Source: Paralichthys olivaceus
Taxonomy: Eukaryota; Chordata; Actinopteri; Pleuronectiformes; Paralichthyidae
Length of the DNA stretch: 64,000 bases
Reading direction: 5' to 3'
Assembly: GCF_024713975.1 (NCBI RefSeq)
Contig: NC_091115.1
Coordinates: forward strand, 5,206,001 to 5,270,000
Shown here: positions 31,603 to 64,000 of the stretch, piece after piece
Layout of the letters: every line of letters starts with the position of its first letter
Position numbering within the stretch: position 1 is the stretch's first letter
The notes under the pieces: model-generated
What the model was told of the DNA's origin: nothing
What the model saw: only the letters and a program-made list of their open reading frames with translations
Databases searched by the model: none
Program-made: the position numbers and the translations under genes

Positions 31603-31648
<46 letters not shown>

Positions 31649-34600
31649 TGTTTCATGCAAAGTAAAGTTGTATAATCTGCTGACCTCTTTGTCCAGAATT
31701 GGTCCATACTCCACATAGTCGTTGATGAGGTGCGCTGGACCCATTATCTTGGCCTTGATGCTGACCCAGTCCAGAGAAAACATGAGGGAGTAGAGCTCCT
31801 GGACAGAAAGACACCATGAAAAAAGACAGAGTTACAGTCATGGTAAAAAACAAAGCGAAGCTGAAGAAATAACGCTGTTGCCACATGTGGAGTGGCTGTC
31901 CACATCTAAATATAGTGCATGAGTATAAGAGTGAGGCTTGGATATATGCATTAAATGTGTATTACCATATTAAAAACCATATGTGGAGGGGCCGTGCATT
32001 GGTTGGAGACTTCAGGCATTATTATGGGGTGGTGAAAGAATCTTGGATGTTTAGAAGTGTATTCAAGAAGAGATCAGAGAGGTTTTCGGTAACTTAAAGA
32101 AATAAACTTCAGACCGAGCACTCTGCCTGTCTACTGGGAATTATTCCAGATAATAAGATGGAAGGAGATTTGATTTATTTATTGAGCATTCTGCTCTTAA
32201 CAGTGAAGAAAATGACAGTTTCCTGGTTGTGGCCGCAGCCCACAAACATAATGCAATGGAGAGATGGGGTAAAGGTCTTTAACTATCAACTAATTCCAGG
32301 AAGCTCTTTCTGACTGTATGTGGATTGCATATCTGGAAATCAGCTTCACACTGTATTTTTAAGGGAACAAGGAAGTTCAGTGTCAAATATGGTGCAATTC
32401 GGACATGTGTTTATTTGCAGTGGCTCAATTACTGCAGGCCACTTTCAAGAAAACTGCAACTGGTATCACCAGAGGCCAAGAAAACCGCCCATTCCAAAAG
32501 GCAGGTTTAGAACAGGCATGTCAAGATTACCTGCTGCGACAAGATATGTTTGCTAAAAGATAGTACATTAAGACTGGGAATGTCAGAGCTCTAACCAACC
32601 AGTTCTAATTTTCTTTAAATATCAAGTTTAAGTTTTATAAGAAAAATGTATGTTCCTTTGTTGTGTATATATATATATATATATAAAAAAAGGCTTTTTA
32701 TATCAAGCTATAAAACTAATTCCTAAAACAATAACATCACAACTGTGTGTGTGTGTGCGCGCATATGTGTGTCCGTGCGCATGTGTGTGCGTTACCTGGG
32801 TAAGGTTGGCTTTAGCCATGTGGTACGTCAGAAATCTGATCCAATAAAGACACTCCTCGTCTCCTGAGATGGGAGGACCGTTTCTGTAGTGCTGCTGATA
32901 CTGACGCACCACTTTAGAGTGAAGACTCTGAAATTGGTCAAAAATATAAATGAATGTCTTGATGAGGGTTAAATGTTTTGATTATAGCCACTTTGCAGTA
33001 TGCTTGCCAACGCCTCTATTGTAAATCCACGTCTGTAAATCAGATCTTAACGCTTGTTGCCGATTTAACAACACTTGACACTTTAGAGTTTTAGATGTCA
33101 CCTCGAGCTGGGCACGGTTCTGCTCCACCAGGAAGTCCAGCTGAAGATCGTGGAGGTAATACAGGCAGGGTTTGTTGTGAGTGTCCACAAAAAGCAGGGA
33201 CTTGTTGACAAACTCCTCGAGAATGTCCTCCACCTCCTCCAGCTCCAGGTCCCACAGAACAGACAACACCTGGGAAAAGGAATAACATGGTTTACCCTGT
33301 GTGACCTTTGAAAAGACTGGGAGATTTAGTTCTTCTATGGAGGAAAAAGAGAGAGACACTTCTTTCAGCCAAACCTTAGCTGGGATTTTAATGTCCTTCT
33401 CCATCACAGTGAGGTCCTTGTAGAGCTCTCGATGTTCGTCAGGCAGGACCTCGATGCTCGCAGCCATGGCTTGGTCCAGGGCGTCGTAGTCATAAGATGA
33501 GGACTTCCGTATACGCTTGAACTGCTTCTGCTGCAGCTGGCAGAGGTAGTAACGCCAGCGGTTGGGTTTCTCCTTGAGCAGGGCCCCGATCAAGGACACC
33601 ACCAGAGGGGAGCCTACGGTGGTGGAACAGAGGAGAAAAACTGTGTTACAGCAAAATATGTCGGCAGAATCAGAGAAGGATGACTCAATAAATGCTTTTA
33701 TTTTCTGGTGGTTTTAAAGGTTAATTTACATCACCAATTTTTGTAACACATATTAATGAGATTTTTTTTCCTTTTATAATTCCATAAGAAATGTTTATAT
33801 TTTATTTGCAAGGCAAAATTAGATACGCTATGACTTCTGCAATTTTTACAAATTGCATGTTCAGTGTGTTTCAGTTTACAGACCTTTACATTCTCTGACA
33901 ATGCTGCGAGCCTCCTCTGGCAGTCCAAGGGGGTTAGTTTGGGTGTAAAGAGCGAGTATCTCCAGTCCTTTGTTTTCATCCAGTCCGCTCTCCACTTCCA
34001 CCTCATGTTTAGCACCTATAAAGTGAAAGCACAATTGCGTTGTACACAATTTCTACGGTTCGCTTTATTCAAGTTTGCAACAGGGTGCTTACCGCTGACA
34101 GAATTAGTTAGGCTTCTGTTTCTGGTGGTTAGAAGAATCCGACAGTGGATATCAAACACCTTCAGCACCGCGCTGTCCCAGATATCGTCGAGAATCAGCA
34201 GAGATCTACAAAATCCAGAGGAGAAACCTACAAGTGATCAGACAAAATAAACTGGAAACAGACAAGTATTCAAAAAATGTAAGTACATACAAGTAAAGTC
34301 TAATCTAATATATCCTCTCTAACATTTGGCTTGTTTTTGTTTATGTGTCTATCTTGTTATTTACAACTAATTCTGCAGAAAACAGACCAATAATGACATA
34401 CATTATATGAATTTGTCAAATTGATATACATGCATACTTAATATGTTGTTTTCCTTTCAGTCATGTTATTAAATCATTACTGGAATTATTTAATATTAAA
34501 CTGAACAAGTCAGATTCAATGAAATGGACATTTCTACCTCGGAAATTTGCACAGCAGCTAAAGTTCAACAGTAATATTTAGCTTAACTGAAAAGTACATC

Positions 34601-35957
34601 AGGATGATCTAAGCATGACAACCTTGGGTATCTGCGCAGCATAAGGAAGCGCAGGCGCTCCTTGGCTTCATCCAGAGAGTTGAGGGGACGGTGGAGAGAC
34701 TGTGTGTCCAGGTGCTGCTCCAGGTGCTGCTCCAGGCGGAAACACAACGACTGGATCTTCACCAGAAGGTCTGGTTTGTCCAGCTGGCCGATAGACAACC
34801 AGTGGATGCCTCCAGGGAAGCACTCTGCAGAGGGAGGCAGGAGGACGGAGAGTGAAAAGACAGATGTCGAAGGGATAAGAGGTGAGAAGCTACCGGAAGC
34901 TGATGACTAAGCAACCATGTTCGAAACTGTAACATCAGCGAGAATGAAAATCTCTCCAAGATTACTGGAGATTTTCATAGTTTAGCTTTTTGTGTTGGGC
35001 ATTCAGTGAATCAGTCAAAGATAACTCACCTTCAATGACACCTTGGTGTCTGACAGCCTCTGCGGCCAGTACAGATTTGCCTGAGCCAGCCATTCCGAAG
35101 ATGGTGACCCAGCCAGGTTCATTTTTCAGCCGGTAGAGTTTCTCTCTTACCCGGTTCAAAAGTTCCGGTCTGCTGACAAACACCACAGGCCTCTGTGGAA
35201 CACCACCTTCACTCAGCACCACTGTTATACAAACAGGAAGGAGATCGATATTAAAGGTGTAACTTTCCCACACCTATGGGTTTAATAACAAGATCATTTA
35301 GCAGATTTGTGAGCTCAACATCAAAACTAGAATTTCAACCTGAGCAGTTTACGTGTAGATATTTCTACATATACGCACGGACGCAAAACTGAAAAACATG
35401 GAGACTTGACAAGCTTTCACCACACCACCCACATACAATTTCCTTGCCGACAGTCACACCTACACACTCATAAAACAAACTTCCAAACCTCCAGTCTCTA
35501 CACCCACGATGCCCCCCCTTCCTCACCATAAGATGTGCAACCATCAGAGTAGCTCTTGTGTGCATTTTCTGAGACCTGCGGAAGGTCATCGTGAAGCATG
35601 TTGGCCAAATCATCATATGCCTCCTTAACCAGGGCGTTGTAGAAGGAGATGTAGGCACGGTTGTCCTTCCGCAGCAGCAGCTCCAGCAGAGCCACAGCCT
35701 GATCCTTTCTGGTGGGCTAGATGGAGAGAGACAGTATAGATGAGATGTGGACAGATAAGTTGATATTTCACTTCCAAAACAGTCAGTTGTTAAGACTTGA
35801 GTCCAGATCTCACCTGAGTCCTGATCCTCTCCTCCTCATCTACGCTCATGACACCATCACTGATCATGTGGTCCATCAGGTACGAGGCCTTGATGTCTTC
35901 TTCGAGTCTGTGGCGAAAGCGAAGCAGACAGCTCCGCGCCCCTTCCTCCAGCGCCAT
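4515..35957 (-). CDS. apaf1: Apoptotic protease-activating factor 1 (complete, 26 coding exons)
   Basis: Apaf1 is the cytosolic apoptosome scaffold. Cytochrome c binds its WD40 propellers, dATP/ATP is used by the NB-ARC domain, and the heptamer recruits procaspase-9 through the CARD. The exons I assembled total 3783 nt, exactly 1261 codons, giving 1260 aa against 1248 aa in human. Order: CARD about 1-95, NB-ARC about 105-420 with P-loop GMAGSGKS at 154-161 (Lys160, the same number as human), Walker B LLILDD ending at Asp250, the LHD motif (MHD equivalent) at about 443-445, a helical arm to about 600, then about fifteen WD40 blades. The start ATG at 35957 is chosen because MALEEGARSCLL aligns with the human amino terminus; an upstream in-frame ATG at 35996 lies at the exon edge. 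No frameshift or lost catalytic residue was seen. Exons are listed separately. Confidence 0.96.
5083..5126. repeat. CA microsatellite
   Basis: A nearly pure CA run in the giant apaf1 intron, followed by a short poly-C stretch. A second GT run is at about 5408-5430. Confidence 0.95.
6474..6520. repeat. CA microsatellite
   Basis: A pure CA dinucleotide run inside the giant apaf1 intron. The histidine/threonine or cysteine/valine reading frames across it are artefacts of the repeat. Confidence 0.95.
8493..8575. repeat. GT microsatellite ending in poly-G
   Basis: About 70 bp of pure GT followed by about 11 G residues. It is likely to be length-polymorphic. Confidence 0.95.
9495..9551. repeat. 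GT microsatellite
   Basis: A pure GT run. A related imperfect CA/GACA run follows at about 9663-9735, so the two nearby arrays have opposite dinucleotide orientation. Confidence 0.95.
11280..11580. repeat. Repeat segment with TGACCTTTGACC motifs
   Basis: Two related subunits each carry a gtgacctttgacc- or tgaccttgacctttgacc-type core followed by an AATC(A/T)G(A/C)TCA-like stretch and a shared TTTTTCAG/CCCTCAAG-like phrase. The pattern resembles an abundant interspersed repeat of teleost genomes, whose formal family name I cannot assign. It lies within the giant apaf1 intron. Confidence 0.5.
13716..13811. repeat. Long GT microsatellite
   Basis: About 90 bp of GT with one early TATG interruption, the longest dinucleotide array in the window. 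Confidence 0.97.
16796..16839. repeat. CA microsatellite
   Basis: CA run in the apaf1 giant intron, about 0.4 kb upstream in coordinate of exon 26. Confidence 0.93.
17278..17424 (-). CDS. apaf1: apaf1 exon 26: WD40 blade
   Basis: It encodes LWSVKEGSLLKICSRDGKDG, then GGWVTCLHFSPDNSLLVSTG and GYIK, matching human HGGWVTDLCFSPDGKMLISAGGYIK. 147 bp, phase 0. The next intron is the 12.6-kb giant. Confidence 0.95.
19148..19273 (-). CDS. apaf1: apaf1 exon 25: WD40 blade
   Basis: It encodes LWRCESWQCLHTLSGHQDCV, then RSCRFSWDSQCLATGDDNGE, matching human ELRGHNGCVRCSAFSVDSTLLATGDDNGEIR. 126 bp, phase 0; donor GTGTGT. Confidence 0.95.
20106..20149. repeat. CA microsatellite
   Basis: CA run in the intron between apaf1 exons 24 and 25. 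Confidence 0.93.
21041..21166 (-). CDS. apaf1: apaf1 exon 24: WD40 blade
   Basis: It encodes VWDIESGEKLQDINAHQGAI, then LSCHVSPDGCLFATTSADKT, matching human CHQGTVLSCDISHDATKFSSTSADKTAK. 126 bp, phase 0. The donor GTTCAA is far from consensus. Confidence 0.94.
21246..21377 (-). CDS. apaf1: apaf1 exon 23: WD40 blade
   Basis: It encodes VWRWQSGEGRVLQGHREQVR, then LNSSEADTRLLSWSYDGTVK, matching human RGHQETVKDFRLLKNSRLLSWSFDGTVK. 132 bp, phase 0. Confidence 0.95.
22560..23150. repeat. Purine-rich low-complexity tract in apaf1 intron
   Basis: About 600 bp strongly biased to A and G on the plus strand (GAGAGAGG, GGAGGAA and similar), lying next to apaf1 exon 22. The serine/proline/phenylalanine-rich open frames on the minus strand here come from this bias and do not look coding. 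Confidence 0.7.
23168..23293 (-). CDS. apaf1: apaf1 exon 22: WD40 blade
   Basis: It encodes VLEVPSGKLLATLLGHTKTV, then LHCQFSQNGQTLITSSEDTT, matching human HKKTVWHIQFTADEKTLISSSDD. 126 bp, phase 0; donor GTGTGC. Confidence 0.94.
23570..23778. mobile_element. Truncated small inverted-repeat element (one end)
   Basis: It ends with catccatctttatttacag then tctatg, the complement of the CATAGACTGTA(T/A)ATAAAGATGG end of the complete element at 38564-38926. The left boundary is uncertain. Confidence 0.5.
25617..25742 (-). CDS. apaf1: apaf1 exon 21: WD40 blade
   Basis: It encodes VRDGKTGSVLFQSEEQSSRI, then RCTCLCKQPSAVALGQEDGT. It corresponds to the human INGRTGQIDYLTEAQVSCC blade. 126 bp, phase 0. 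A small inverted-repeat element begins 25 bp upstream in the adjacent intron. Confidence 0.9.
25767..26048. mobile_element. Small inverted-repeat element (MITE-like) in apaf1 intron
   Basis: The ends form an 18-bp terminal inverted repeat: left gttgttttcagacatgaa, right (complement) gctgctttcacacatgaa, 15 of 18 matching. The internal motif agcaggagattctctgctca is shared with the element at 41323-41532. There is no coding capacity, so it is a non-autonomous element. Confidence 0.6.
26160..26279 (-). CDS. apaf1: apaf1 exon 20: WD40 blade
   Basis: It encodes LWETKKVHTTSAVCLKRDSD, then VLFCDEEITVSAADNCNRLQ, matching human LWETKKVCKNSAVMLKQEVD. 120 bp, phase 0. Confidence 0.94.
26780..26905 (-). 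CDS. apaf1: apaf1 exon 19: WD40 blade
   Basis: It encodes LWDLESNKKMADCSGHLSWV, then QCVQFSDDGSQLLSCSDDQT, matching human KVADCRGHLSWVHGVMFSPDG. 126 bp, phase 0. A CA repeat sits about 5 bp upstream of the acceptor. Confidence 0.94.
27143..27271 (-). CDS. apaf1: apaf1 exon 18: WD40 blade
   Basis: It encodes VFDVETSDMLLEIKTNRLST, then VQYCHACPTSNLLAIAFSNY, corresponding to human HHSTIQYCDFSPQNHLAVVALSQY. 129 bp, phase 0. Confidence 0.92.
27834..27980 (-). CDS. apaf1: apaf1 exon 17: WD40 blade
   Basis: It encodes VSSANEWKTINVNSMFTESD, then EAVLVKCSTWTADGKRIACA, matching human TSANERKSINV and the WSADGARI blade core. 147 bp, phase 0. Confidence 0.93.
28100..28480. repeat. Interspersed repeat fragment (CTCTGTCAAGAAGGT type)
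   Basis: It shares the phrases 'tttgt ttgtgggtcagaaggattatgcaaaaa' and 'catggatcttgatgaaaa' with copies at 7630-7740, 21560-21680, 45390-45910, 48700-49130, 52430-52530 and 59310-59420. It is a dispersed family in this window, in both orientations. I cannot name the family. Confidence 0.55.
28920..29045 (-). CDS. apaf1: apaf1 exon 16: WD40 blade
   Basis: It encodes LWNLNRPSSQNAMFGHFEPV, then NHCCFSPDDTYLSTSSNDGT, matching human TMFGHTNSVNHCRFSPDD. 126 bp, phase 0. Confidence 0.94.
29645..29785 (-). CDS. apaf1: apaf1 exon 15: WD40 blade with weak acceptor
   Basis: It encodes VWNVERAMLLRVFAVEHEEQ, then VNHCQFTNTRRQLLLATCSD. 141 bp, phase 0. The acceptor is AACAAG after a purine-mixed tract without a good polypyrimidine run, which makes this exon a candidate for skipping. 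Confidence 0.88.
29885..30010 (-). CDS. apaf1: apaf1 exon 14: WD40 blade
   Basis: It encodes VFRSTTGEKLTEIQAHDDEV, then LCCAFSPDDRLLATCSSDRK. One blade in 126 bp, phase 0 on both sides; the closing DRKVK takes the place of the usual WD. Confidence 0.93.
30370..30496 (-). CDS. apaf1: apaf1 exon 13: first WD40 blade
   Basis: It encodes LSRLVIHPHQGSIYSACFSH, then DGAKIATCGASKTLK. This is the first repeat of the cytochrome-c-binding propeller. A CA microsatellite (about 30507-30531) immediately precedes the acceptor and could affect splicing. Confidence 0.92.
30691..30875 (-). CDS. apaf1: apaf1 exon 12: end of helical arm
   Basis: It encodes NSEVRSQFQEFLSLNGHHLE, then QRPFPDVVQLALSQP and a YFDWL end. 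It aligns with human FQEFLSLNGHLLGRQPFPN. The donor is GTATGC. It is the only exon downstream of exon 7 that ends out of phase. Confidence 0.93.
31603..31647. repeat. CA microsatellite
   Basis: CA run in the intron just downstream (in gene direction) of apaf1 exon 11. Confidence 0.94.
31685..31798 (-). CDS. apaf1: apaf1 exon 11: helical domain 2
   Basis: It encodes ELYSLMFSLDWVSIKAKIMG, then PAHLINDYVEYGPILDKE, matching human LMFSLDWIKAKTELVGPAHLI. 114 bp, phase 0. A CA repeat lies just downstream in the intron. Confidence 0.93.
31885..32645. other. Unexplained stretch in apaf1 intron 10
   Basis: This approximately 0.76-kb stretch has moderate complexity and short open frames on the plus strand. 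The texture suggests a decayed mobile element, but I found no terminal repeats or recognisable protein motif. Confidence 0.3.
32796..32927 (-). CDS. apaf1: apaf1 exon 10: helical domain 2
   Basis: It encodes QQHYRNGPPISGDEECLYWI, then RFLTYHMAKANL, matching the human DQEDCMYWYNFLAYHMASA segment. 132 bp, phase 0. The donor GTAACG abuts a GT/GC-rich stretch at 32745-32790. Confidence 0.92.
33102..33269 (-). CDS. apaf1: apaf1 exon 9: winged-helix domain with LHD motif
   Basis: It encodes VLSVLWDLELEEVEDILEEF, then NKSLLF and YYLHDLQLDFLVEQN. LHD is the Apaf-1 form of the MHD motif that holds ADP in the locked state. 168 bp, phase 0 at both ends. Confidence 0.94.
33270..33374 (-). other. apaf1: Short apaf1 intron 8 that is open in frame
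   Basis: The 105-bp intron lies between a weak donor (GTTTGG) and a good acceptor (TTTTCCCAG). Its length is a multiple of three and it has no stop in the reading frame of the flanking exons. Retention would insert 35 residues between the NB-ARC and winged-helix parts. Confidence 0.8.
33375..33613 (-). CDS. apaf1: apaf1 exon 8: NB-ARC GxP motif and winged helix start
   Basis: It encodes GSPLVVSLIGALLKEKPNRW (the GxP motif Pro contacts the adenine) and KQFKRIRKSSSYDYDALDQA. Its donor is a poor GTTTGG. The following 105-bp intron is open in the same frame, so intron retention would leave a translatable message (see findings). Confidence 0.94.
33884..34015 (-). CDS. apaf1: apaf1 exon 7: NB-ARC helical subdomain
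   Basis: In the correct frame it reads GAKHEVEVESGLDENKGLEI, followed by LALYTQTNPLGLPEEARSI. This aligns with the human KGLEILSLFVNMKKADLPEQAHSI region. The frame follows from the preceding exon's phase. Confidence 0.92.
34093..34205 (-). CDS. apaf1: apaf1 exon 6: Walker B and sensor I
   Basis: It encodes SLLILDDIWDSAVLKVFDIHC, then RILLTTRNRSLTNSVSG. LLILDD is the Walker B strand with its acidic pair, and LLTTRNR carries the sensor arginine. Acceptor TTTTGTAG, donor GTAAGC. Confidence 0.93.
34623..34824 (-). CDS. apaf1: apaf1 exon 5: NB-ARC
   Basis: It encodes CFPGGIHWLSIGQLDKPDLL, then an RLEQHLEQHL repeat and KERLRFLMLRRYPR. The duplicated LEQH looks like a small local expansion: two copies of CAGGTGCTGCTC lie in tandem at about 34710-34733. 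This accounts for part of the extra length over human Apaf-1. The donor GTTGTC is weak. Confidence 0.9.
35030..35221 (-). CDS. apaf1: apaf1 exon 4: start of NB-ARC, P-loop
   Basis: It encodes SEGGVPQRPVVFVSRPELL, then PGWVTIFGMAGSGKSVLAAE. The P-loop GMAGSGKS (35073-35096) binds the nucleotide phosphates. Human has Cys at the fifth position where this protein has Ser158. Confidence 0.95.
35527..35716 (-). CDS. apaf1: apaf1 exon 3: second half of CARD
   Basis: Codons 49-111 include ALLELLLRKDNRAYISFYNAL, equivalent to the human MILKKDNDSYVSFYNAL helix, and YDDLANMLHDDLP. Acceptor CTAG, donor GTGAGG; the exon ends one base into a codon. Confidence 0.93.
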
Positions 35958-47600: not shown

Positions 47601-49259
47601 GTACTTTTTAGCCCCTCTTTGGGACCTTTCCCAGTATAAACAATAACCTTTTCAGGACCAGTGGACTCGTGGTCCCCATGACGTAAAACTTCTCCATCAC
47701 TCATTTTGGTCTTTTCCCCACTCCTCTGTCTGCACATTTATGTCCCAATATATTGTCTCCGAATGAAAATGACTTGTCTACAAACCAAGCTCCAAAACAA
47801 ATCAATACCACCCCAAACTCATGTTAAACTCCTTTAATCCCAGAACATCTGGCGTTGGTGGAGCAGAGGCAGGAGTGTCTCCGATCGCCCCCTGCAGCTG
47901 ATCGTAGGATCCCTATTTTCCCCACATCTTATCCTTCCTTCTGAGTCTGAGCCAGAAGCTCCTTTGTTCTTCCTACTCTGCCTGGGGTCTGTACTACTAA
48001 ACAAGTTCAACATGACCATGGATATCTTTCTGAGATTCCAGCAGAATTTAACCAAACAATCGCAGTCTGGCTAAGCGGCCACACAAAGGTGGTTATCATC
48101 TCCACAACCCAGGGTTTAGGGTAAGGGTTAGGGGACCAGTGACCAGTGAACTGACAGCAGAGCCACATATTTTACAAACGACGATCAAACTGTTAAATTA
48201 ACACATTATCCAGAATAAAATAAACAGTTACAGCTGCTAAATGCAGTAAGAGCAGCTGGTAAATCATCTCTAATTGTGTGAATGTGTAAGTTATGGAGCC
48301 CCTGGTGACATTTGGGAAAAATATATTATGTGACCACGATAAAAAAAAATTTGGGGAACGAGATAAATAAGTTGGGCCACAACAAATGAAACTGCTGTAT
48401 ACTAACAAGACCTGTGGAACCCTAACCCCAACCCACTGAAATGAGGAGGCCTCTTGGGTGAGAGATGAAATGAACACACTGTGGTGGAAACGTTTGACAT
48501 AGTCATTTATTTTGTTTTATCTTATCTTTACTTTATATTCTTCACTTTTCATGCTTGTTTGATTAGCGTTGTTAATTTCCCAATCTTTGAACAATAATGG
48601 AATTCTGATTCTGATTCTGAATAAACACACATGGACCTAATTCTTTCAGTAGTTTTCTTGTAATCTTGCTAACTAATAAACAAACACAGATGAAAACATA
48701 CCCTCCTTGGCAGAGGTAACTATAAAGGCACTTAGAGAGCACAGAGCTCCACCAAGGCGTATTGGTCTTGGTCATTTTCACATTATGTTGAATATATATG
48801 TATTGAGATCAAACACATTCACATTTACACGTTTCATAAAGATACAACATTTCTTGAGATATAAAAAAATTATTCTGAATCTGCCCCTTTGATCACATCC
48901 GCTCCTAAATTTAATGAGTTCTTCCATGGCCCACATGTCACCCTTATATTAATAAAATAATCAATTTATATTAATTATAAATAACAAAAATAATAAAATC
49001 AGTTCAGTGGTTTTTGCATAAGCATTCAAACCCGCAATGAAAATGTAATCTCCTTTGACTTAAGTGGAAATCCTTCCAGTAGTTTTTGTTTCATCCTACT
49101 TACACACAATAAACAAACTGACAGTAGTGAAAACCTTCATAAAATAATGGGTCCTGGTTAGCATCCAGTGGATATTATGATGCCTTCAGCAAAGAAGTTT
49201 GCTTGAACCCATTCTCATCAGTGAACCAAAGATAATTTGATCAATTCTCTTTTTTTGTG
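47600..49259. other. Intergenic DNA with repeat fragments
   Basis: No coding exon was found. A retroposon-like tail ending in repeated ATTCTG (48600-48622) and a reverse-oriented copy of the 28100-type repeat (48700-49130) are visible. Telomere-like TTAGGG/CCCTAA snippets occur at 48112-48134 and 48418-48434, in opposite orientation. Confidence 0.5.
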
Positions 49260-50429
49260 CTATTGATCCCAAAACCAATGAGTAAGAGAATGAGAAGCAT
49301 GATATCCTCTGTTTTTTTCTAAGTAACGACAAGCTTTGCAGGCATGTTCCCTGCCGAATTGTGAACCTTCGACTTCATACCTCTTTTTCCAATCAAAGAA
49401 TGTCATATATTCAGCAGTATTCTGTTCAAGGTGAAGGAGTCTCTCTGCCAGCTCCTTTGGAGTGGGAAAGTCATCGACATGAATGAAAGCGTCGCCTGGG
49501 ACTTGGTCTTCGTAGTTTCTTCTCGTTGTGCCCAGAGCTACGGGTACAGTTCCCAGTTTCATGGGATTGAATAACTTCTCTGTGATATAATCTGTGTGTT
49601 GAGAGTTTTCAAAGGCGAGATAGAATTTACAACTTGAGACAATGCTAGCATAGCTTTCAGCATCTACATGTTTGCCAAAAGCCTTCCCATAAGTTTCTAT
49701 GTGGATGTGTTCTTTCAGTTCGTTGTAGTACTGAACTCTTTTGAGCCCCTCATGCCAGTTGCTCACAATCCAACAAACCAACTTGTCCTTGGTTGGCAGC
49801 TGGAAACTCTCCACCTCAGATGTATGTGGCTCTAAATGCCCATAATGCACTGGGATATGTGAATCTAAGCGATAACAGGATGTCACGTTGAACAAGTTAT
49901 CAAGTCCAGGTAATTTTTTGCAGTTTGAAGGTGACTCCATGTTGAACCACACCCATTTCTGAAACCAGGGACGTGGCTCACTTGGCATGTTTTCCAGATT
50001 TCCCTGAATGTCCCAGTGGTGGAAGAGAACCCCGTGGGCTTTGTGGTAAAGAGACTTGTCATCAGTCAAGCGGCATCCTTTATATTTTACCGTATCGCAA
50101 GTGAGATCAAATTTGTGGCCAAATGGCCACATCCAAATCAACAGGAGAATGTCGGGCTCAGCCTCCACCTCCACATCCTGGATCTTCTGGGGACCATCGG
50201 TAGGTGCTTCCTCGTGCTGCTCCGAGGAACGGTTTTGGTTTGAGCCCTGGGTCTGTGCCTCCACAGGACACACACAAGAATGATTTCCTCTCTTCAGATA
50301 AACACTGAAATCAGGGAACTCGATTTCTGACTTGTAGTATGTTAAAAAAATCACAAAGAAACACACCAACAGTACGCAGCCGAAGGCAATTTGGCGCGGA
50401 CGAGTCATCTGGCAGCTCGAGAAGGACAT
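49260..50429 (-). CDS. Alpha-1,3-fucosyltransferase, GT10 family, copy 1
   Basis: It is a type II Golgi enzyme that transfers fucose from GDP-fucose to GlcNAc or Gal-GlcNAc on glycans (Lewis-type epitopes). The 389-aa frame has no intron. It has a short cytosolic tail, a signal-anchor at about 14-32 and a stem to about 92 with N-glycosylation sequons (NHS, NRS). The GT10 catalytic domain includes HHWDI at 137-141 and the GDP-fucose-binding signature FYLAFENSQHTDYITEKLF at 269-287. Trp at the third position of HHWDI is the residue type that in human FUT3 favours type 1 acceptors (alpha-1,4 activity), whereas Arg favours type 2. It most resembles FUT9-like fish enzymes, but the human orthologue is unclear. 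An acceptor (CTCCAG) at 50439 and a donor after 51643 imply an upstream non-coding exon. Confidence 0.93.
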   Translation of the reverse strand: MSFSSCQMTRPRQIAFGCVLLVCFFVIFLTYYKSEIEFPDFSVYLKRGNHSCVCPVEAQTQGSNQNRSSEQHEEAPTDGPQKIQDVEVEAEPDILLLIWMWPFGHKFDLTCDTVKYKGCRLTDDKSLYHKAHGVLFHHWDIQGNLENMPSEPRPWFQKWVWFNMESPSNCKKLPGLDNLFNVTSCYRLDSHIPVHYGHLEPHTSEVESFQLPTKDKLVCWIVSNWHEGLKRVQYYNELKEHIHIETYGKAFGKHVDAESYASIVSSCKFYLAFENSQHTDYITEKLFNPMKLGTVPVALGTTRRNYEDQVPGDAFIHVDDFPTPKELAERLLHLEQNTAEYMTFFDWKKRYEVEGSQFGREHACKACRYLEKNRGYHASHSLTHWFWDQ

Positions 50430-51642
50430 GGTTCACGTCTGGAGAGACAAAAGGTTGCGTTTTATTTTTAATTCGAATATTTCTGTACACAGGTTGTTAC
50501 TACAACTTGATTTTGAGCCAACAAACCAATTAATATGAACATGTAAATTTAGACGTGTCATGTTTTTTTTTAAATTGACATTTCTCTATATGAGTTCTAC
50601 TGTTGATGTAAACTAGTGCAGTGTCTGTTCTTAACTTGTCAGTTTGGAATGGGCTGTTTGTTTGGCCTGGATTGATGCTGGTTGCAGCTTTTCCTTCTGA
50701 AACTGTAAAAGTGACCTGCACTAACTGAGCTGTGATGAAGCTGTTCACCTGTTTATTCAAAGTTCAGTTTATTCAGTTCAGCTTGTGAAAGACAACATCA
50801 CTGATGGTGTTGAGTCCAGGTCGTCACTGCTACAGAGCGCTGGTTGTCTGTTTATTGAAGTTTATTAATATTGAACATATCGCTTGTCCATCTCACACAA
50901 GCCTTTGTGCATCCGTCAATCTCCCCAGTCTCACCTTGTGCTTCTGCTCAGTTCCTTTGACTATTTTTGGACTTTCCTGTTCGTCTGCATGCCTATAACC
51001 GCCAACTGGAGCATCTACAAGCCTGTTTATTTACATTAAAATTCTCTTCATTACACATTTTGACTCCTGAAATCTTTTATGTCTCGACGTTCATCTCAAA
51101 AATGCCAAAGTTCCAACAAATATTGGCCACAATACATTGCACTAAGAATAAAAGCACATAATCCAACAAAAAGTGTTTTTTTTTCTCTTCAGGCAAGTCA
51201 CCAGATGTTTGGCTTCATGAGTAAGATGAAGAACCTTGCAGATATTTTTTACACCCATGAATATCACTCAAATCTAAGCTCCGTCTATGGGAACAGCAGA
51301 GGTGACAATAAAGGACAAAGATACTGTGTGTTTTCATGAACATCAAACACTAATGACCAAACTATAATGGAAGAAACTAATAACTAGAAAAATGCATTAC
51401 TGAACCATCTGAACCTGTCAGACATGTTGAGAAGCATAAGAAGGGCTTTATAAGTGTTACGTTAAACTAAAATTTGATTTTAAACCATAAGCGAAATAGG
51501 AAAAGCTTATTTCTTTTTTCCGTTTAATTAAACCGTCTAATAATATTATTTTCATAAAACTCTAAATAAAAAAATGAAACTCTAAAACAACATACAGAGA
51601 CTCCATTAAGGTAAAGCTGGAAACATGAAGCAGCAGTCTCAC

Positions 51643-51730
51643 CTTGATGGAGAAAAGCACAGGTAGATCACAATGACTGAGATGTTCCTCTTTCTGTTTT
51701 TAGCTGCTGAGTTTCCTCATGTTTAACATC
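51643..51730 (-). other. Probable 5' untranslated exon of fucosyltransferase copy 1
   Basis: A donor (GTGAGA) follows base 51643. The same exon and donor recur at the equivalent place upstream of copies 2 and 3, which supports it as a real shared leader exon. The 5' limit is unknown. Confidence 0.5.
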
Positions 51731-52231
51731 TATTTGCATATAGTCACCTGATCCTATACAAATGATATTGTCTGGTTTGATGGACCCACATTTGTACCAG
51801 ATTCCAGCTCGACTCAGGGCACGTCAGTTAGATGTTTTCCCAACTGGATATGGCCACTAGACAATGTATTGACAACAAAGGACAAGATCTAAATCAAGTG
51901 ATTTCGAATAAAACTTTAATCTTAAGGGGCAGAACCAGCGGATGATGAGGGTTTGTGCACTTCACTAAGTATGACTCAGGTCGACAGGTCGAACAGGTTC
52001 CGAGCCTCTCCCTGAGGAGTCGTATCTCACTATTGACTTTCCTGTGTTCGTAACTGTGTCACAAGAACCATTGGTATCAAACTTTAGTTTAACAGATCTA
52101 GGCTGCAGTCAAAGTCAAAATGTTCTTCTTTCCTCACCTCAATTCACCTGCCTGAGCCAACAGAGCCACAAAAAGGACACAACCTGCTTTGATTGTTTGC
52201 CATTTATGTGTGGCAGCATAATCATCTTAAT

Positions 52232-52294: not shown

Positions 52295-52640
52295 ATACTA
52301 GTGATACTACTCCTTCTACTCCTTCTTTATTAATAAACTATGACTGTGTGCCAGTTAGCTTGCATGAACAGGAGAACCTTGAACTGAAACAGCTCAATGA
52401 AATTCAGCCAGGCATGAGTTCCTCCATGGCCCAGACCTCACCCTTCTACCAAGTTTCAATACAACTGTTTCAGTAGTTTTTGCATAACCATTCAAACAGA
52501 CAAACAAACAGCAATGAAAACCTAACCTCCATAAAAAACACCGGTTGATATTACGATTCCTTCACCCAAAAAGTTCCCTTCAGGCCATTGTCATCAGTGA
52601 ACTAAACTAAAACATAATTGGATCAATGCTCTTTTTTGTA

Positions 52641-53813
52641 CTATGTATCCCAGAACCAATGAGTAAGAGAATGACAAGCATGGTGTCCTCTGTTTTTTTG
52701 TAAGTAACGACAAGTTTTGCAGGCATGTTCCGTTCCATAATAAAAGTGTTGAATTCTATACCTCTTTTTCCAATCAAAGAATGTCATATATTCAGCAGTA
52801 TTCTGTTCAAGGTGAAGGAGTCTCTCTGCCAGCTCCTTTGGAGTGGGAAAGTCATCGACATGAATGAAAGCGTCGCCTGGGACTTGGTCTTCGTAGTTTC
52901 TTCTCGTTGTGCCCAGAACTACGGGTACAGTTCCCAGTTTCATGGGAGTGAATAACTTCTCTGTGATATAATCTGTGTGTTGAGAGTTTTCAAAGGCGAG
53001 ATAGAATTTACAACTTGAGACAATGCTAGCATAGCTTTCATCATCTACATGTTTGCCAAAAGCCTTCCCATAAGTTTCTATGTGGATGTGTTCTTTCAGT
53101 TCGTTGTAGTACTGAACTCTTTTGAGCCCCTCATGCCAGTTGCTCACAATCCAACAAACCAACTTGTCCTTGGTTGGCAGCTGGAAACTCTCCACCTCAG
53201 ATGTATGTGGCTCCAAAAACCCATAACGCACTGGGATATGTGAATCTAAGCGATAACAGGATGTCACGTTGAACAAGTTATCAAGTCCAGGTAATTTTTT
53301 GCAGTTTGGAGGTGGCTCCATGTTTAACCACACCCATTTCTGAAACCAGGGACGTGGCTCACTTGGCATGTTTTCCAGATTTTCGTAAATGTCCCAGTGG
53401 TGGAAGAGAACCCCGTGGGCTTCATGGTAAAGAGACTTGTCATCAGTCAAGCGGCATCCTTTATATTTTACCATATCGCAGGTGAGATCGTATTTTTCGT
53501 CAAATGGCCACATCCAAATCAACAGGAGAATGTCGGGCTCAGCCTCCACCTCCACATCCTGAATCTTCTGGGGACCATCGGTAGGTGCTTCCTCGTGCTG
53601 CTCCGAGGAACGGTTTTGGTTTGAGCCCTGGGTCTGTGCCTCCACAGGACACACACAAGAATGATTTCCTCTGTTCAGATAAACACTGAAATCAGGGAAC
53701 TTGTTTTCAAGTGTGTAGTAGTATGTTAAAAAAATCACCAAGAAACACACCAACAGTACGCAGCCAAAGGCAATTTGGCGCGGACGAGTCATCTGGCAGC
53801 TCGCGAAGGACAT
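52641..53813 (-). CDS. Alpha-1,3-fucosyltransferase, GT10 family, copy 2
   Basis: The 390-aa intronless frame has the same layout as copy 1 and near-identical sequence. It differs by a one-residue longer stem start (YYYTLENKFPDF), WPFDEKYDL where copy 1 has WPFGHKFDL, RYGFLEPH where copy 1 has HYGHLEPH, and a different carboxy end (RIQHFYYGTEHACKTCRYLQ). It keeps HHWDI (138-142) and the fucosyltransferase signature; the residue after EKLF is Thr289. Same Golgi type II topology is expected. Confidence 0.93.
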   Translation of the reverse strand: MSFASCQMTRPRQIAFGCVLLVCFLVIFLTYYYTLENKFPDFSVYLNRGNHSCVCPVEAQTQGSNQNRSSEQHEEAPTDGPQKIQDVEVEAEPDILLLIWMWPFDEKYDLTCDMVKYKGCRLTDDKSLYHEAHGVLFHHWDIYENLENMPSEPRPWFQKWVWLNMEPPPNCKKLPGLDNLFNVTSCYRLDSHIPVRYGFLEPHTSEVESFQLPTKDKLVCWIVSNWHEGLKRVQYYNELKEHIHIETYGKAFGKHVDDESYASIVSSCKFYLAFENSQHTDYITEKLFTPMKLGTVPVVLGTTRRNYEDQVPGDAFIHVDDFPTPKELAERLLHLEQNTAEYMTFFDWKKRYRIQHFYYGTEHACKTCRYLQKNRGHHACHSLTHWFWDT

Positions 53814-54130
53814 GGTTCACCTCTGGAGAGACAAAAGATCTGGTTATTGAAGACAGAACATTTGATTTGAAAGAAGTTGTTTTCTATGTTTTTATCTGTA
53901 CACACATGTTGTTACTACAGCTTGATTTGGAGCCCACAAATCAGTTGATATAATAACATTTTATTTCCATTTCTAAAACTGCCTTTAACAGTTTCAGCTT
54001 TTCCTTCTGAAACTGTAAACATGACCTGCGGTAATTGTAAGGCCACTTGGTGATGTTAATGGACATTTTGTTGATCAAAAGATGTGTGGCTTCATGAGTA
54101 AGATGAAGAACCTTACAGATATTTTTTTTT

Positions 54131-54717: not shown

Positions 54718-54758
54718 ACATCCTTTATAATTTACCGTATCGCAGGTGAGATCGGATT
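54718..54758 (-). pseudogene. Isolated fucosyltransferase coding fragment (about 38 bp)
   Basis: catcctttataatttaccgt followed by atcgcaggtgagatcg matches the stretch of copy 3 at about 60328-60363 base for base, including the AATTT that differs from copies 1 and 2 (both have ATTTT there). It encodes only a dozen codons and has no flanking homology. Confidence 0.7.
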
Positions 54759-55410
54759 TATTACCACAATAATTAATATTACTAAAAACCTTGATTATCA
54801 TACTGCAGGAACAGATTTACTGTGATCAACTGAAACGTGAACTTGTCAGACTTTACTGACTGTCATTGGAGTGTCAAGTAAGTGAACATGCAGAATGTCG
54901 GTGACTCAGATAACCTGCACCCATGGATGTCCTACATGAGACAGAACTAGACTCCAACAAGACTGAACACTGAGTCACCACTTCTGCACTGACTCCAGGT
55001 ACAGACCTGTTTTTATAACTTACTAACAATAAAAGCAAAGTATTGCACATAATACATGATGCATTACATAATATATGCAATACTTTTAATGTGGAAGAAC
55101 TCCATACTGCACATTCATTGTCTTGGTAGTACAGTGTTTAATCCCAAACCATATTCAGATACATAGTTGAATATCCAGAGAATATAAGGACACAAACATT
55201 GTTTGAAAGTAACACTTATCTTTGCAATAATGCCATACTTTTGTGTTTCCTGTCATTTTATTAGGGAAGGACGAACCTGAGGGACACAGCTGTGCTGAGT
55301 GTGTTCTGTCTCTTATGGCAAAAAAGAAAAGAAAACCCTGTTTTTATCTAAAGTTTATCAAATCAGAAAGTAAAAGATGAACATTGTTGTGATAACTGTT
55401 ACTATATTCT

Positions 55411-57910: not shown

Positions 57911-59521
57911 CAAGAATTACTTCCAACCAAATTCACAGTCCATGTTGACTCGTCAATCTTCACATCTTCATCCTGCTATTGATTCCTCACTAGTAGAGGT
58001 CAAATTTCATCTAGATTTAGGAGCTAAATTATGGGATGGCTTTTCACAGGTGTCAAAGAACTGTTGTTCAATAACATGCTACAAAAGATGCTTAAAAGAT
58101 CATTTAACACTGTTCCTCTTTTAGTATTGTTGTCTGGAGATTTGATTTGTTTGGGAATGTTGTATATTGCTCAGGAGTCAATGCATGTGTATACAATCTC
58201 ACCTCACCACAACACACCATCACACTGAGATCTGAATCTGAATCCCTCTGCACACCTCTGTCCAATTATGATCTACCGTCACTTGGACTCAGAGATGAAC
58301 TGGTTACATCTCAGAGTAAGATTATGTAGATGGAGAATGCACTGAGTGGTGGAGGCATCCAACCGCAGTGCAGTATTTCTAGATTGTTTCATATAATGTC
58401 AAATAAATTGTTTGTGTATATATACATATATACTGGCGATACTACTCTTACTACTCCTTCTTTATTAATAAACTATGACTGTGTGCCAGTTAGACTGCAT
58501 GAACAGGAGAACCCTGAACTGAAACAGCTAAATGAAATTCAGCCATTATTTATTTAAATTTTATTTATTATTCATTTATACTATTATTTGTACTATATCA
58601 GTACTTTTCCTATACTGTGATGTCTCAAAAAGGCCACTACATGGGAGCACAGTCTCTACTATTAGCAATATATGTTGCACTACTAAAGGTGCTCTATATG
58701 GCACAATTGGAGGATCCATCCAACTACTGGCCTACTTTTAATACTACCACTACTACTTCTTATTTCCCAGTTAGCCAGCCTCCACAACACCAGGGCCTTA
58801 AAAATGAGGTCGCCAAATTTAATCCAGTCATCATTATTTTTGTTATACTGTATGTGAATGCATCTTTCCTACTGTGGCATATTCAAATATTCAAATGGCC
58901 ACTAGATAGCCCCAGAGTCTTTACTACTGTGTTGGCAAAGACTCACTGAGCTCAATATCTCACAATCTATCTGTATTCAATTGGTTGTTCATGTGTCTGA
59001 AATATCATACTGCACAGTTCTAAAAGTGTACGTCTTAGGAAGTTGAAGTTTAATGCTGTTTTAAAAAGAGCACTTAACACGTATTTCTGCCAGACAATTA
59101 TGGTTCTTGTTTAGACTTTTAACAAATTTAGTTTTCCCATAAAAGATTATAGTTAATAACAAAAATTCAAGAGAGACACACAATTGCACATTTTCCAGGA
59201 TTTATTGTTGTTCTTGTTAGGCCTTACAAGAGTTAAGGAAAGAAGTTTACATACAACAATGAGAGAATCTATTTAAAGGAGACTGTTGGCGATGTAGAGT
59301 TCCTCCATGGCCCAGACCTCACCCTTCTACCAAGTTTCAATACAACTGTTTCACTAGTTTTTGCATAACCATTCAAACAGACAAACAAACAGCAATGAAA
59401 ACCTAACCTCCATAAAAAACACCGGTTGATATTATGATTCCTTCACCCAAAAAGTTCCCTTCAGGCCATTGTCATCAGTGAACTAAACTAAAACATAATT
59501 GGATCAATGCTCTTTTTTGTA
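57911..59521. other. Intergenic DNA 3' of fucosyltransferase copy 3
   Basis: 58430-58546 and 59296-59521 are duplicated from the 3' side of copy 2 (52295-52412 and 52415-52640). About 750 bp in between (58547-59295) has no counterpart there and looks like a later insertion, though no terminal repeats are clear. Confidence 0.6.
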
Positions 59522-60691
59522 CTATGTATCCCAGAACCAATGAGTAAGAGAATGACAAGCATGGTGTCCTCTGTTTTTTTGTAAGTAACGACAAGTTTTG
59601 CAGGCATGTTCCGTTCCATAATAAAAGTGTTGAATTCTATACCTCTTTTTCCAATCAAAGAATGTCATATATTCAGCAGTATTCTGTTCAAGGTGAAGGA
59701 GTCTCTCTGCCAGCTCCTTTGGAGTGGGAAAGTCATCGACATGAATGAAAGCGTCGCCTGGGACTTGGTCTTCGTAGTTTCTTCTCGTTGTGCCCAGAAC
59801 TACGGGTACAGTTCCCAGTTTCATTGGCCTGAATAACTTCTCTGTGATATAATCTGTGTGTTGAGAGTTTTCAAAGGCGAGATAGAATTTACAACTTGAG
59901 ACAATGCTAGTATAGCTTTCAGCATCTACATGTTTGCCAAAAGCCTTCCCATAAGTTTCTATGTGGATGTGTTCTTTCAGTTCGTTGTAGTACTGAACTC
60001 TTTTGAGCCCCTCATGCCAGTTGCTCACAATCCAACAAACCAACTTGTCCTTGGTTGGCAGCTGGAAACTCTCCACCTCAGATGTATGTGGCTCCAAAAA
60101 CCCATAACGCACTGGGATATGTGAATCTAAGCGATAACAGGATGTCACGTTGAACAAGTTATCAAGTCCAGGTAATTTTTTGCAGTTTGGAGGTGGCTCC
60201 ATGTTTAACCACACCCATTTCTGAAACCAGGGACGTGGCTCACTTGGCATGTTTTCCAGATTTTCGTAAATGTTCACGTGGTGGAAGAGAACCCCGTGGG
60301 CTTCGTGGTAAAGAGACTTGTCATCAGTCAAGCGGCATCCTTTATAATTTACCGTATCGCAGGTGAGATCGTATTTTTCGTCAAATGGCCACATCCAAAT
60401 CAACAGGAGAGTGTCGGGCTCAGCCTCCACCTCCACATCCTGGATCTTCTGGGGACCATCGGTAGGTGCTTCCTCGTGCTGCTCCGAGGAACGGTTTTGG
60501 TTTGAGCCCTGGGTCTGTGCCTCCACAGGACACACACAAGAATGATTTCCTCTCTTCAGATAAACACTGAAATCAGGGAACTGGTTTTCAAACTTGTAGT
60601 ATGTTAAAAAAATCACCAAGAAACACACCAACAGTACGCAGCCGAAGGCAATTTGGCGCGGACGAGTCACCTGGCAGCTCGAGAAGGACAT
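59522..60691 (-). CDS. Alpha-1,3-fucosyltransferase, GT10 family, copy 3
   Basis: The 389-aa intronless frame has a signal anchor at about 14-32, a stem to about 92 and a GT10 catalytic domain. The amino-terminal part is copy-1-like (MSFSSCQ, YLKRGNH) and the catalytic domain copy-2-like (WPFDEKYDL, RYGFLEPH, RIQHFYYGTEHACKTCRYLQ), so the gene is a mosaic. The acceptor motif is HHVNI (137-141) where both sister copies have HHWDI. The residue after EKLF is Arg288. The donor-binding signature FYLAFENSQHTDYITEKLF is intact, so an active enzyme with altered acceptor preference is plausible. Confidence 0.93.
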   Translation of the reverse strand: MSFSSCQVTRPRQIAFGCVLLVCFLVIFLTYYKFENQFPDFSVYLKRGNHSCVCPVEAQTQGSNQNRSSEQHEEAPTDGPQKIQDVEVEAEPDTLLLIWMWPFDEKYDLTCDTVNYKGCRLTDDKSLYHEAHGVLFHHVNIYENLENMPSEPRPWFQKWVWLNMEPPPNCKKLPGLDNLFNVTSCYRLDSHIPVRYGFLEPHTSEVESFQLPTKDKLVCWIVSNWHEGLKRVQYYNELKEHIHIETYGKAFGKHVDAESYTSIVSSCKFYLAFENSQHTDYITEKLFRPMKLGTVPVVLGTTRRNYEDQVPGDAFIHVDDFPTPKELAERLLHLEQNTAEYMTFFDWKKRYRIQHFYYGTEHACKTCRYLQKNRGHHACHSLTHWFWDT

Positions 60692-61905
60692 GGTTCACGT
60701 CTGGAGAGACAAAAGGTTGCGTTTTAGTTTTAATTCGAATATTTCTGTACACAGGTTGTTACTACAACTTGATTTTGAGCCAACAAATCAATTAATATGA
60801 ACATGTAAATTTAGACGTGTCATGTTTTTTTTTAAATTGACATTTCTCTATATGAGTTCTACTGTTGATGTAAACTAGTGCAGTGTCTGTTCTTAACTTG
60901 TCAGTTTGGAATGGGCTGTTTGTTTGGCCTGGATTGATGCTGGTTGCAGCTTTTCCTTCTGAAACTGTAAAAGTGACCTGCACTAACTGAGCTGTGATGA
61001 AGCTGTTCACCTGTTTATTCAAAGTTCAGTTTATTCAGTTCAGCTTGTGAAAGACAACATCACTGATGGTGTTGAGTCCAGGTCGTCGCTGCTACAGAGC
61101 GCTGGTTGTCTGCTTATTGAAGTTTATTAATATTGAACATATCGCTTGTCCATCTCACACAAGCCTTTGTGCATCCGTCAATCTCCCCAGTCTCACCTTG
61201 TGCTTCTGCTCAGTTCCTTTGACTATTTTTGGACTTTCCTGTTCGTCTGCATGCCTATAACCGCCAACTGGAGCATCTACAAGCCTGTTTATTTACATTA
61301 AAATTCTCTTCATTACACATTTTGACTCCTGAAATCTTTTATGTCTCGACGTTCATCTCAAAAATTCCAAAGTTCCAACAAATATTGGCCACAATACATT
61401 GCACTAAGAATAAAAGCACATAATCCAACAAAAAGTGGGTTTTTTTCTCTTCAGGCAAGTCACCAGATGTTTGGCTTCATGAGTAAGATGAAGAACCTTG
61501 CAGATATTTTTTACACCCATGAATATCACTCAAATCTAAGCTCGCGTCTATGGGAACAGCAGAGGTGACAATAAAGGACAAAGATACTGTGTGTTTTCAT
61601 GAACATCAAACACTAATGACCAAACTATAATGGAAGAAACTAATAACTAGAAAAATGCATTACTGAACCATCTGAACCTGTCAGACATGTTGAGAAGCAT
61701 AAGAAGGGCTTTATAAGTGTTACGTTAAACTAAAATTTGATTTTAAACCATAAGCGAAATAGGAAAAGCTTATTTCTTTTTTCCATTTAATTAAACCGTC
61801 TAATAATATTATTTTCATAAAACTGTACATAAAAAAATAAAACTCTAAAACAATATACAGAGACTCCATTAAGGTAAAGCTGGAAACATGAAGCAGCAGT
61901 CTCAC

Positions 61906-61995
61906 CTTGATGGAGAAAAGCACAGGTAGATCACAATGACTGAGATGTTCCTCTTTCTGTTTTTAGCTGCTGAGTTTCCTCATGTTTAACATTTG
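61906..61995 (-). other. Probable 5' untranslated exon of fucosyltransferase copy 3
   Basis: The donor GTGAGA after base 61906 and the exon sequence are nearly identical to those of copy 1 at 51643-51730. The intron to the coding exon (about 60700-61905) is likewise nearly identical to that of copy 1. Confidence 0.5.
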
Positions 61996-62052
61996 TTTGC
62001 ATATAGTCAACTGATCCTATACAAATGATATTGTCTGGTTTGATGGACCCAC

Positions 62053-62640
62053 CTTTATTTGTGGCAGCATAAAGTGCACAACCCCACATTCAACCTAAAT
62101 GTTCTGCACACGCATTAAATGTAAATTGCATCTGTATTATTTGAAAGTGTTGCCCACCATACATACATATGGAAGGCTTGGAACAGGGGAGTAATTAGTT
62201 AGATTGATTTGGAAAAGTAAAAGTATAGAATAGAAAAGCAACTGTATAAAATATATGAAGCAGGAGCTTTGTTGCAGGATCTAACATTTGAAAATGTAAA
62301 TATGTATGATCCAAAAAACACACAAATACATACTGTTCCTGTTACCAAACGAACTAACTAACTAACCATTTGTTCCACATCTGCTCTGTAATCACCACTA
62401 GAATCCATTGCATACGAGGAAGAGAGTAAAAATCTCACCTTGAAGTATAAAAAGAAGTTTCTTAAAAAGTAAAAAAATTGCTCAACATTTTTCTGAAATG
62501 CTGTAAAGTCTCAAATGTAATTTATTGCTTGACAAGCTGGTATTTTCCTGCACCGTCGAAATACGACGAGAACATATGAATGCGGAAATTAAATGACAAA
62601 AGTAAATATCTGAATGAAGACACCAATAAAAAAACCCTTT
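62053..62640. other. AT-rich intergenic DNA
   Basis: No gene, hairpin or repeat end was recognised between the fucosyltransferase duplication and the LINE. Confidence 0.5.
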
Positions 62641-64000
62641 CGAAATAGGGTTCAAGGTTCAAGGATTATATGGTCATATGCACAATAACATTTAACAGTT
62701 GCTGGCAATGAAATGCTTCAGTCCCAGGCCCCCTTTTAGACATGCTCTGAATTTATGAAAATAAAAAATTAAAATAGAATATAAAATATATAAAATGAAA
62801 TAGAACTAAAAATATATAAAATGAAATAGAACAAAAATATATAAAATTAAATAGAATATAAAAATAAAAAATACCAATACAAAAGTAGTACAAATCTTGT
62901 GCAAATATTGTAAAGTGCAGAGAGATGAATTATGACAGATGGGAGGAGTTTAAAAGTCTTATGGCCTGCGGGATGAAACTGTCCCTGAGCCTGGTGGTGC
63001 AGGCCCGGATGCTGCGGTACCGGCGGCCAGATGGCAGCAGACAGAACAGTCTATGGTTTGGGTAGTAGGGGTCTTTAATGACCCGGTTGCTCTTCTTCCT
63101 ACACCGCTGGGTGAAAGGGTCCTCCATGGTTGGCAGCTCTGTCCTGGTGATGTGCTGAGCAGACTTCACCACCCTCTGTAAAGCCTTACGGTTCAGGGCG
63201 GTGCAGCTGCCATACCAGGCGGTGATGCAGCCAGTCAGGATACTCTCAATGGTGCACCTGTAGAAGTTGCAGAGAATCCTGAGGTCCATGTTGAGCCTCC
63301 GCAGCCTGCTGAGATAGAAGAGCCGCTGTCTGGCAGTCTTTGTGATGGAGTGTGTGTGTTGAGTCCATGTCAGGTCATCCGAGGCTGCTGACTCTCTCCA
63401 CCATAGTCCCATTGATTGATAGGAGGGCGTGTTTAACTCCCTGTCTCTTCCTGTAGTCCAAGATCAGCTCCTTAGTTTTGCTGATATTGAGATGAAGGTT
63501 GTTGTCCTGGCACCAAGATGACAGGGCTCTGACCTCCTCTCTGAAGGCCATCTCATCGTCGCCGGTGATCACGCCTATGTTATCCGCAAATTTAATGATG
63601 GTGTTGGAGCTGTGGGTGGCCATGCAGTCTTACATGAACAGGGAGTACAGGAGAGGGTGAGCACGAAGCCCTGGGGGGGCCGGTGCTGAGAGTCAGGGTG
63701 GAGGATGTCGTGTTACCTATCCGCACTGCCTGGGGTCTGCCCGTCAGAAAGTTCAGTATCCAGTCACAGAGGGCGGTGTTGAGCACATGGTCTCTGAGCT
63801 TGGTGACGAGCTTCAGGGGCATGATGGTATTGATCGCTGAACTATAGTCAATGAACAGCATTCTCACATATGTGTCCTTCTGCTCCAGGTGGGCGAGGAC
63901 AGAATGAAGGGTGAGTGAGATGGCATCTGCAGTTGACCTATTTGGCCTATAGACAAACTGCAGTGGGTTCATTGAGTCAGGGAGGGAGGAGGTGATAAAG
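62641..64000 (-). mobile_element. LINE retrotransposon, L2/CR1-type, 3' part, decayed
   Basis: On the minus strand, fragments of reverse transcriptase occur in three frames: 63972-63592 ([30 protein letters not shown]), 63623-63375 ([19 protein letters not shown]) and 63412-62930 (RLFYLSRLRRLNMDLRILCN, LLPSGRRYRSIRACTTRLRD). The frame changes show it is not functional, and the catalytic FADD is FADN. The 3' untranslated tail carries ttcaaggttcaaggattata and tgcacaataac (62650-62690). The 5' part lies beyond the right edge. The clade name is from memory of teleost elements. Confidence 0.85.

Follow-up and report, generated by a model that had tools for sequence, protein, structure and literature searches.

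Copy 3, one of three fucosyltransferase genes that form an array in the window (the whole stretch of DNA analysed, 64,000 nucleotides), is a young chimera of copies 1 and 2, a point missing from the preliminary description of this DNA, and it carries Val-Asn at a position in motif II where both of the other copies have Trp-Asp. Our preferred reading, to which we give a probability of roughly 45%, is of a young chimeric duplicate that sustained one clustered change, which removed the Trp linked to type 1 acceptors and may have narrowed or weakened acceptor use.

Results

Three GT10 fucosyltransferase genes

The three genes were delimited as follows:

49260-50429, minus strand: copy 1, 389 amino acids, HHWDI; upstream-side parent of copy 3 (ORF, Pfam and alignment)
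52641-53813, minus strand: copy 2, 390 amino acids, HHWDI; downstream-side parent of copy 3 (ORF, Pfam and alignment)
59522-60691, minus strand: copy 3, GT10 fucosyltransferase of 389 amino acids, HHVNI (single intact coding ORF, Pfam and PDB)

Both PF17039 and PF00852 were found well over their cut-offs in all three copies. Copy 3 scored 113.4 bits with PF17039, against a cut-off of 28.7, and 214.6 bits with PF00852, against one of 23.9, and belongs to the GT10 fucosyltransferases. Its main parts are:

60587-60661, minus strand: predicted membrane-anchor helix, residues 11-35 (AlphaFold2 model)
60101-60415, minus strand: PF17039, N-terminal (acceptor-side) domain, residues 93-197 (Pfam)
60197-60199, minus strand: Glu165, aligned with FUT9 Glu137 and retained in all three copies (alignment)
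59537-60058, minus strand: PF00852, C-terminal (GDP-fucose) domain, residues 212-385 (Pfam)

The top PDB match of copy 3 was human FUT9 (8d0o; E 7.4e-94), with which 136 of 295 aligned residues were identical. We take Glu137 of FUT9 to be the catalytic base; the residues of copy 3 aligned with FUT9 Tyr168, Arg202, Tyr241 and Lys256 are identical to those of FUT9, and these four, like Glu137, presumably have functional roles. The FUT9 numbering used here assumes that the 322-residue chain ends at residue 359, the end of FUT9 given in PMC11949838. When copy 3 alone was modelled with AlphaFold2, the mean pLDDT for the whole model was 37.9 and the only part with fair confidence was the helix at residues 11-35, a candidate for the type II membrane anchor of the Golgi alpha1,3/4-FUTs (77-79 in the blocks covering residues 11-30, and 46 in block 31-40). 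The coding sequence is monoexonic, one ORF of 389 codons, as in the Golgi alpha1,3/4-FUTs, and a splice-acceptor-like CTCTCCAG lies 9 bases ahead of the ATG in all three copies.

The array is adjoined by exons of apaf1 (22775-35273, minus strand; WD40, NB-ARC and APAF-1-like winged helix, from Pfam and PDB), which point to a vertebrate-like genome, presumably that of a fish to judge by its general appearance. A retrotransposon remnant lies at 62930-63999 (minus strand), with ORFs matching RVT_1 (21.8 bits, under the cut-off of 29.6) and ALKBH8_N.

Copy 3 combines parts of copies 1 and 2

The chimeric nature of copy 3 follows from its two flanks, the upstream one being of copy-1 type and the downstream one of copy-2 type:

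60692-62056, minus strand: copy 3 upstream flank, of copy-1 type; aligned with 50430-51793 over 1365 columns, it shows 16 mismatches and 1 gap
59297-59521, minus strand: copy 3 downstream flank, of copy-2 type; aligned with 52416-52640 over 225 columns, it shows 2 mismatches

With the coding sequence included, the homologous blocks pair 49165-51793 with 59422-62056 (96.4%) and 52416-53951 with 59297-60798 (95.1%). Within the coding sequence, the site patterns of copy 3 pass from copy-1 type to copy-2 type past about nt 252-314. The exceptions (nt 75, 104, 105 and 110 before the switch, and nt 341, 390 and 773 after it) can be explained as changes private to copy 1 and to copy 2, respectively.

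Under forced alignment the flanks of copies 1 and 2 were mostly 30-75% identical per 100 columns and seemingly unrelated; a local search, on the other hand, revealed interrupted upstream homology with anchors of 77-96%, and these are therefore older paralogous flanks. Since this upstream homology is old and interrupted, yet the 1300-column block containing the coding sequence is 93.7% identical, the coding region of the two genes has probably been homogenised. Residues 352-360 of copy 1 (approximately 49350-49376, minus strand) read EVEGSQFGR, as against RIQHFYYGT in copies 2 and 3, and run into the diverged 3' flank; this dense block of differences resembles the border of a tract of conversion or homogenisation.

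An isolated 41-bp piece of fucosyltransferase coding sequence was also observed in the non-coding DNA upstream of copy 2 (54719-54759, minus strand). It is identical to copy 3 at 40 of 41 positions and includes the AAT (Lys to Asn) codon of copy 3 that is absent from copies 1 and 2, which suggests that this variant was once present in more than one place.

A clustered change of three bases in motif II

60272-60277, minus strand: Val139-Asn140, GTG AAC (copies 1 and 2: TGG GAC, Trp-Asp); aligned with FUT9 Arg111-Asp112

The plus strand reads GTTCAC at 60272-60277, so that the minus strand supplies codons 139-140 of copy 3, within FHHVNI; copies 1 and 2 both have FHHWDI and the codons TGG GAC. 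Reading the minus strand and comparing the copies bore out what the preliminary description had reported, a conversion of TGG GAC to GTG AAC by three changes within four bases (nt 418, 419 and 421 of the coding sequence). The near-identity to copy 2 that it described over some 100 bp on either side was also seen: the only differences in the 100 nt upstream were at nt 341, 348 and 390, and the next one downstream was at nt 773.

Copy 3 is unlike both other copies at 11 sites of the coding sequence, two of which are three-state. When these 11 sites were placed at random, three fell within four bases with P = 0.0022, and the motif change was therefore probably one event. Clustered change in copy 3 is not peculiar to the motif; a second cluster was found at nt 866, 867 and 870 (codons 288-289, approximately 59825-59830, minus strand), where a Thr to Arg replacement and a silent change fall in the donor-side domain. 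As to the source of GTG AAC, the longest string shared with the remainder of the window, among matches covering all the changed bases, was 10 bases. A templated origin from ACGTGAAC near the ATG (it stands immediately ahead of the ATG in copies 1 and 3 as well) was considered and dropped, because several unrelated places likewise gave matches of 8 bases.

Near-identical tandem copies are, as a general matter, readily misassembled, and an error of assembly or base calling at the motif might be imagined. We consider this extremely improbable, because the reading frame is kept and the three in-frame substitutions match neither neighbour, which is not what collapse of the copies would be expected to give. 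The Val-Asn change thus looks real. Of the three coding sequences, only that of copy 3 contains a PmlI site, CACGTG.

Val-Asn lies outside the motif II consensus

According to PMC11949838, all alpha1,3/4-FUTs have a motif II, [F/I/V]HH[R/W][E/D], that serves lactosamine recognition, and PMC4202792 makes Trp111 of FUT3 and FUT5 responsible for recognising type 1 acceptors. Copies 1 and 2, with FHHWD, conform to this consensus, whereas FHHVN in copy 3 departs from it at both residues. The earlier view of Val-Asn as unusual is thus upheld against the consensus as given in PMC11949838. The suggestion that the site governs acceptor specificity held in part: the changed residues do lie in the acceptor-recognition motif, according to PMC11949838 and PMC4202792, but no evidence was found in our comparisons for a new acceptor preference. 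Pattern searches of genome contigs (59 matches) and viral contigs (1 match) yielded no confirmed relatives, and a search of titles and the openings of abstracts, with few subscription journals among them and with terms other than the Val-Asn string itself, gave no published description of the variant, which is weak evidence of novelty.

The cost of the change was gauged by scoring variants of the copy 2 segment against PF17039, in which the first position took 11 of the 20 residues and the second took 9. The scores were 116.5 bits for Trp-Asp, 115.9 for Val-Asp, 115.9 for Trp-Asn, 115.4 for Val-Asn and 118.4 for Arg-Asp, so that Val-Asn is penalised by only 1.1 bits relative to Trp-Asp, and all 20 versions scored fell within 113.6-118.4 bits. 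Both motif positions are thus tolerant of substitution in this broad N-terminal model of GT10. This small gap is what would be seen if position 111/112 tolerated Val-Asn and copy 3 behaved like copy 2. We think such a functionally silent change very unlikely, as the profile is a broad GT10 model with nothing specific to vertebrate FUTs, which we take to span GT10 beyond the alpha1,3/4-FUTs, whereas the motif II consensus is stated in PMC11949838 for every alpha1,3/4-FUT.

Divergence among the copies

Replacement and silent changes were counted by the method of Nei and Gojobori for the three pairs of copies, over the whole gene and in four regions, and no significant excess of replacements was found in any pair, either over the whole gene or in the four regions. 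The dN/dS that the preliminary description had put forward as a check on altered function did not lend it support: the full-length values were 0.81 (copies 1 and 2), 1.15 (1 and 3) and 0.77 (2 and 3), with Fisher P of 0.76, 0.42 and 0.83, respectively, for a replacement excess, and those for codons 91-210 were 0.95, 1.67 and 1.56, again without significance (P 0.30-0.66). Compared with its parents, copy 3 shows 15 replacements and 3 silent changes (P = 0.44), or 16 and 3 under another assumed breakpoint (P 0.39-0.44 over both); the ratio of 15:3 is close to that of the sites, 917:250. Its pN was 0.0164 and its pS 0.0120, with 0.0113 for the flank, and the replacement rate was not significantly over the flank rate (1.64% against 1.13%; P 0.14-0.19 by breakpoint). 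Copy 3 has therefore diverged about as fast as its flanks, which is how a weakly constrained duplicate should behave; the same comparison (P = 0.19) leaves room for selection on copy 3, and relaxed constraint and weak positive selection are indistinguishable with these data. A claim of positive selection on copy 3 was accordingly rejected as unproven, there being no significant excess in the pairwise, parent-wise or flank tests.

The near-neutral full-length dN/dS values (0.77-1.15) and the proportion of replacement to silent changes are also what would be seen if copy 3 were drifting towards a pseudogene under relaxed constraint, with Val-Asn as one of several harmful changes and most activity lost. 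Loss of the acid of motif II, contrary to the consensus of PMC11949838, points the same way. Against this, the 389 codons contain no stop or frameshift, although at such low divergence this would be expected in any case, and the GDP-fucose domain is nearly unchanged (4 of 140 columns variable over 212-351). On balance we regard such decay as unlikely, while giving it appreciable weight.

The distribution of differences along the protein bears on another reading, in which Val-Asn is adaptive, conferring a new acceptor preference while the acceptor side diversified throughout the array. Amino-acid-variable columns among the three copies numbered 8 of 90 (with one gap column) over 1-90, 16 of 121 over 91-211, 4 of 140 over 212-351 and 13 of 39 over 352-390. 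The differences are therefore concentrated on the acceptor side and in the C-terminal tail, and the donor region varies less. It is consistent with an adaptive change, moreover, that FUT10 and FUT11, which are off motif II, use a different acceptor (PMC11949838), and that 24 FUT9 genes have been published for one fish (PMC8692874). However, silent changes in the donor region are few as well (0, 1 and 1.5 by pair), so homogenisation accounts for the pattern without selection, and the significant replacement excess that might be looked for was absent from every pair and region. We consider the adaptive reading quite improbable. Slightly more doubtful still is one in which copy 3 would be active and its Val-Asn motif II would give it an acceptor unused by the known alpha1,3/4-FUTs, recombination and clustered mutation having operated in the array while the acceptor side diversified and the donor side stayed uniform.

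Discussion

The preferred explanation, a young chimeric duplicate with narrowed or weakened acceptor use, may be set out as a series of steps, of which we infer the functional ones throughout. Copy 3 would have arisen by recent tandem duplication from a GT10 fucosyltransferase of Golgi type that resembles FUT9, the upstream half of copy 1 and the downstream half of copy 2 having presumably recombined inside the nearly identical coding region. To judge from the clustering, TGG GAC would then have become GTG AAC by a single multinucleotide mutation, or by conversion over a short tract with an unseen relative as donor. Copy 3 retains its predicted anchor, its donor-side GDP-fucose domain and the glutamate that lines up with the catalytic base of FUT9, so that it probably still binds GDP-fucose. 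Val-Asn takes away the Trp tied to type 1 (alpha1,4) transfer and leaves motif II without its acid. The likeliest outcome would be a narrower or weaker use of acceptors, with at most a type-2-like alpha1,3 activity, rather than a new sugar preference.

Several points count against this preferred explanation. Copies 1 and 2, which pair a FUT3-like Trp with a scaffold whose nearest comparator was FUT9, are only putative users of type 1 acceptors; the cost of Val-Asn in the profile is so small (1.1 bits) that the change may matter little; and replacements in copy 3 run somewhat above the changes in the flanks, which would allow for selection. A new acceptor preference of copy 3 is possible on the sequence evidence, and lost or weakened activity fits the data equally well; sequence alone cannot separate a new activity, a narrower activity and a failing enzyme.

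Should copy 3 prove active, the array would amount to a natural test of motif II, in which nearly the same protein carries either Trp-Asp or Val-Asn, and the contrast in this residue pair between copies 2 and 3 would bear on the role of motif II in a FUT9-like scaffold. An inactive copy 3 would be an ordinary decaying young duplicate. The Val-Asn finding is of modest weight unless activity of copy 3 is shown.

Among known fucosyltransferases, human FUT9, an alpha1,3-fucosyltransferase of GT10, has the same two-domain architecture as copy 3, the HH of motif II, the glutamate at position 137 and the same donor-side residues, a likeness drawn from PDB comparison. The two differ in the residue pair itself: where FUT9 has Arg111-Asp112, copy 3 has Val-Asn and copies 1 and 2 have Trp-Asp. 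The Lewis enzymes FUT3 and FUT5 (human alpha1,3/4-fucosyltransferases) have in common with copies 1 and 2 the Trp after HH, where copy 3 has Val, although this likeness is by published description (PMC4202792), neither enzyme being among the six PDB sequences matched. FUT10 and FUT11 (POFUT3 and POFUT4) are, like copy 3, GT10 members that are off motif II; according to PMC11949838 they have FYGTD at this place, act on protein and are polyexonic, whereas copy 3 has FHHVN, with the HH kept, and a single coding ORF. Copy 3 is not of the FUT10/FUT11 type. Because its motif II departs from the consensus, we did not file it among the canonical alpha1,3/4-FUTs (FUT3-7 and FUT9); it nevertheless has their build and probably functions as they do. 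The presence of multiple FUT9-type genes in a fish has a precedent in Lagocephalus sceleratus, for which PMC8692874 describes an expansion of FUT9 to 24 genes, so that a large FUT9 expansion is already known from one fish.
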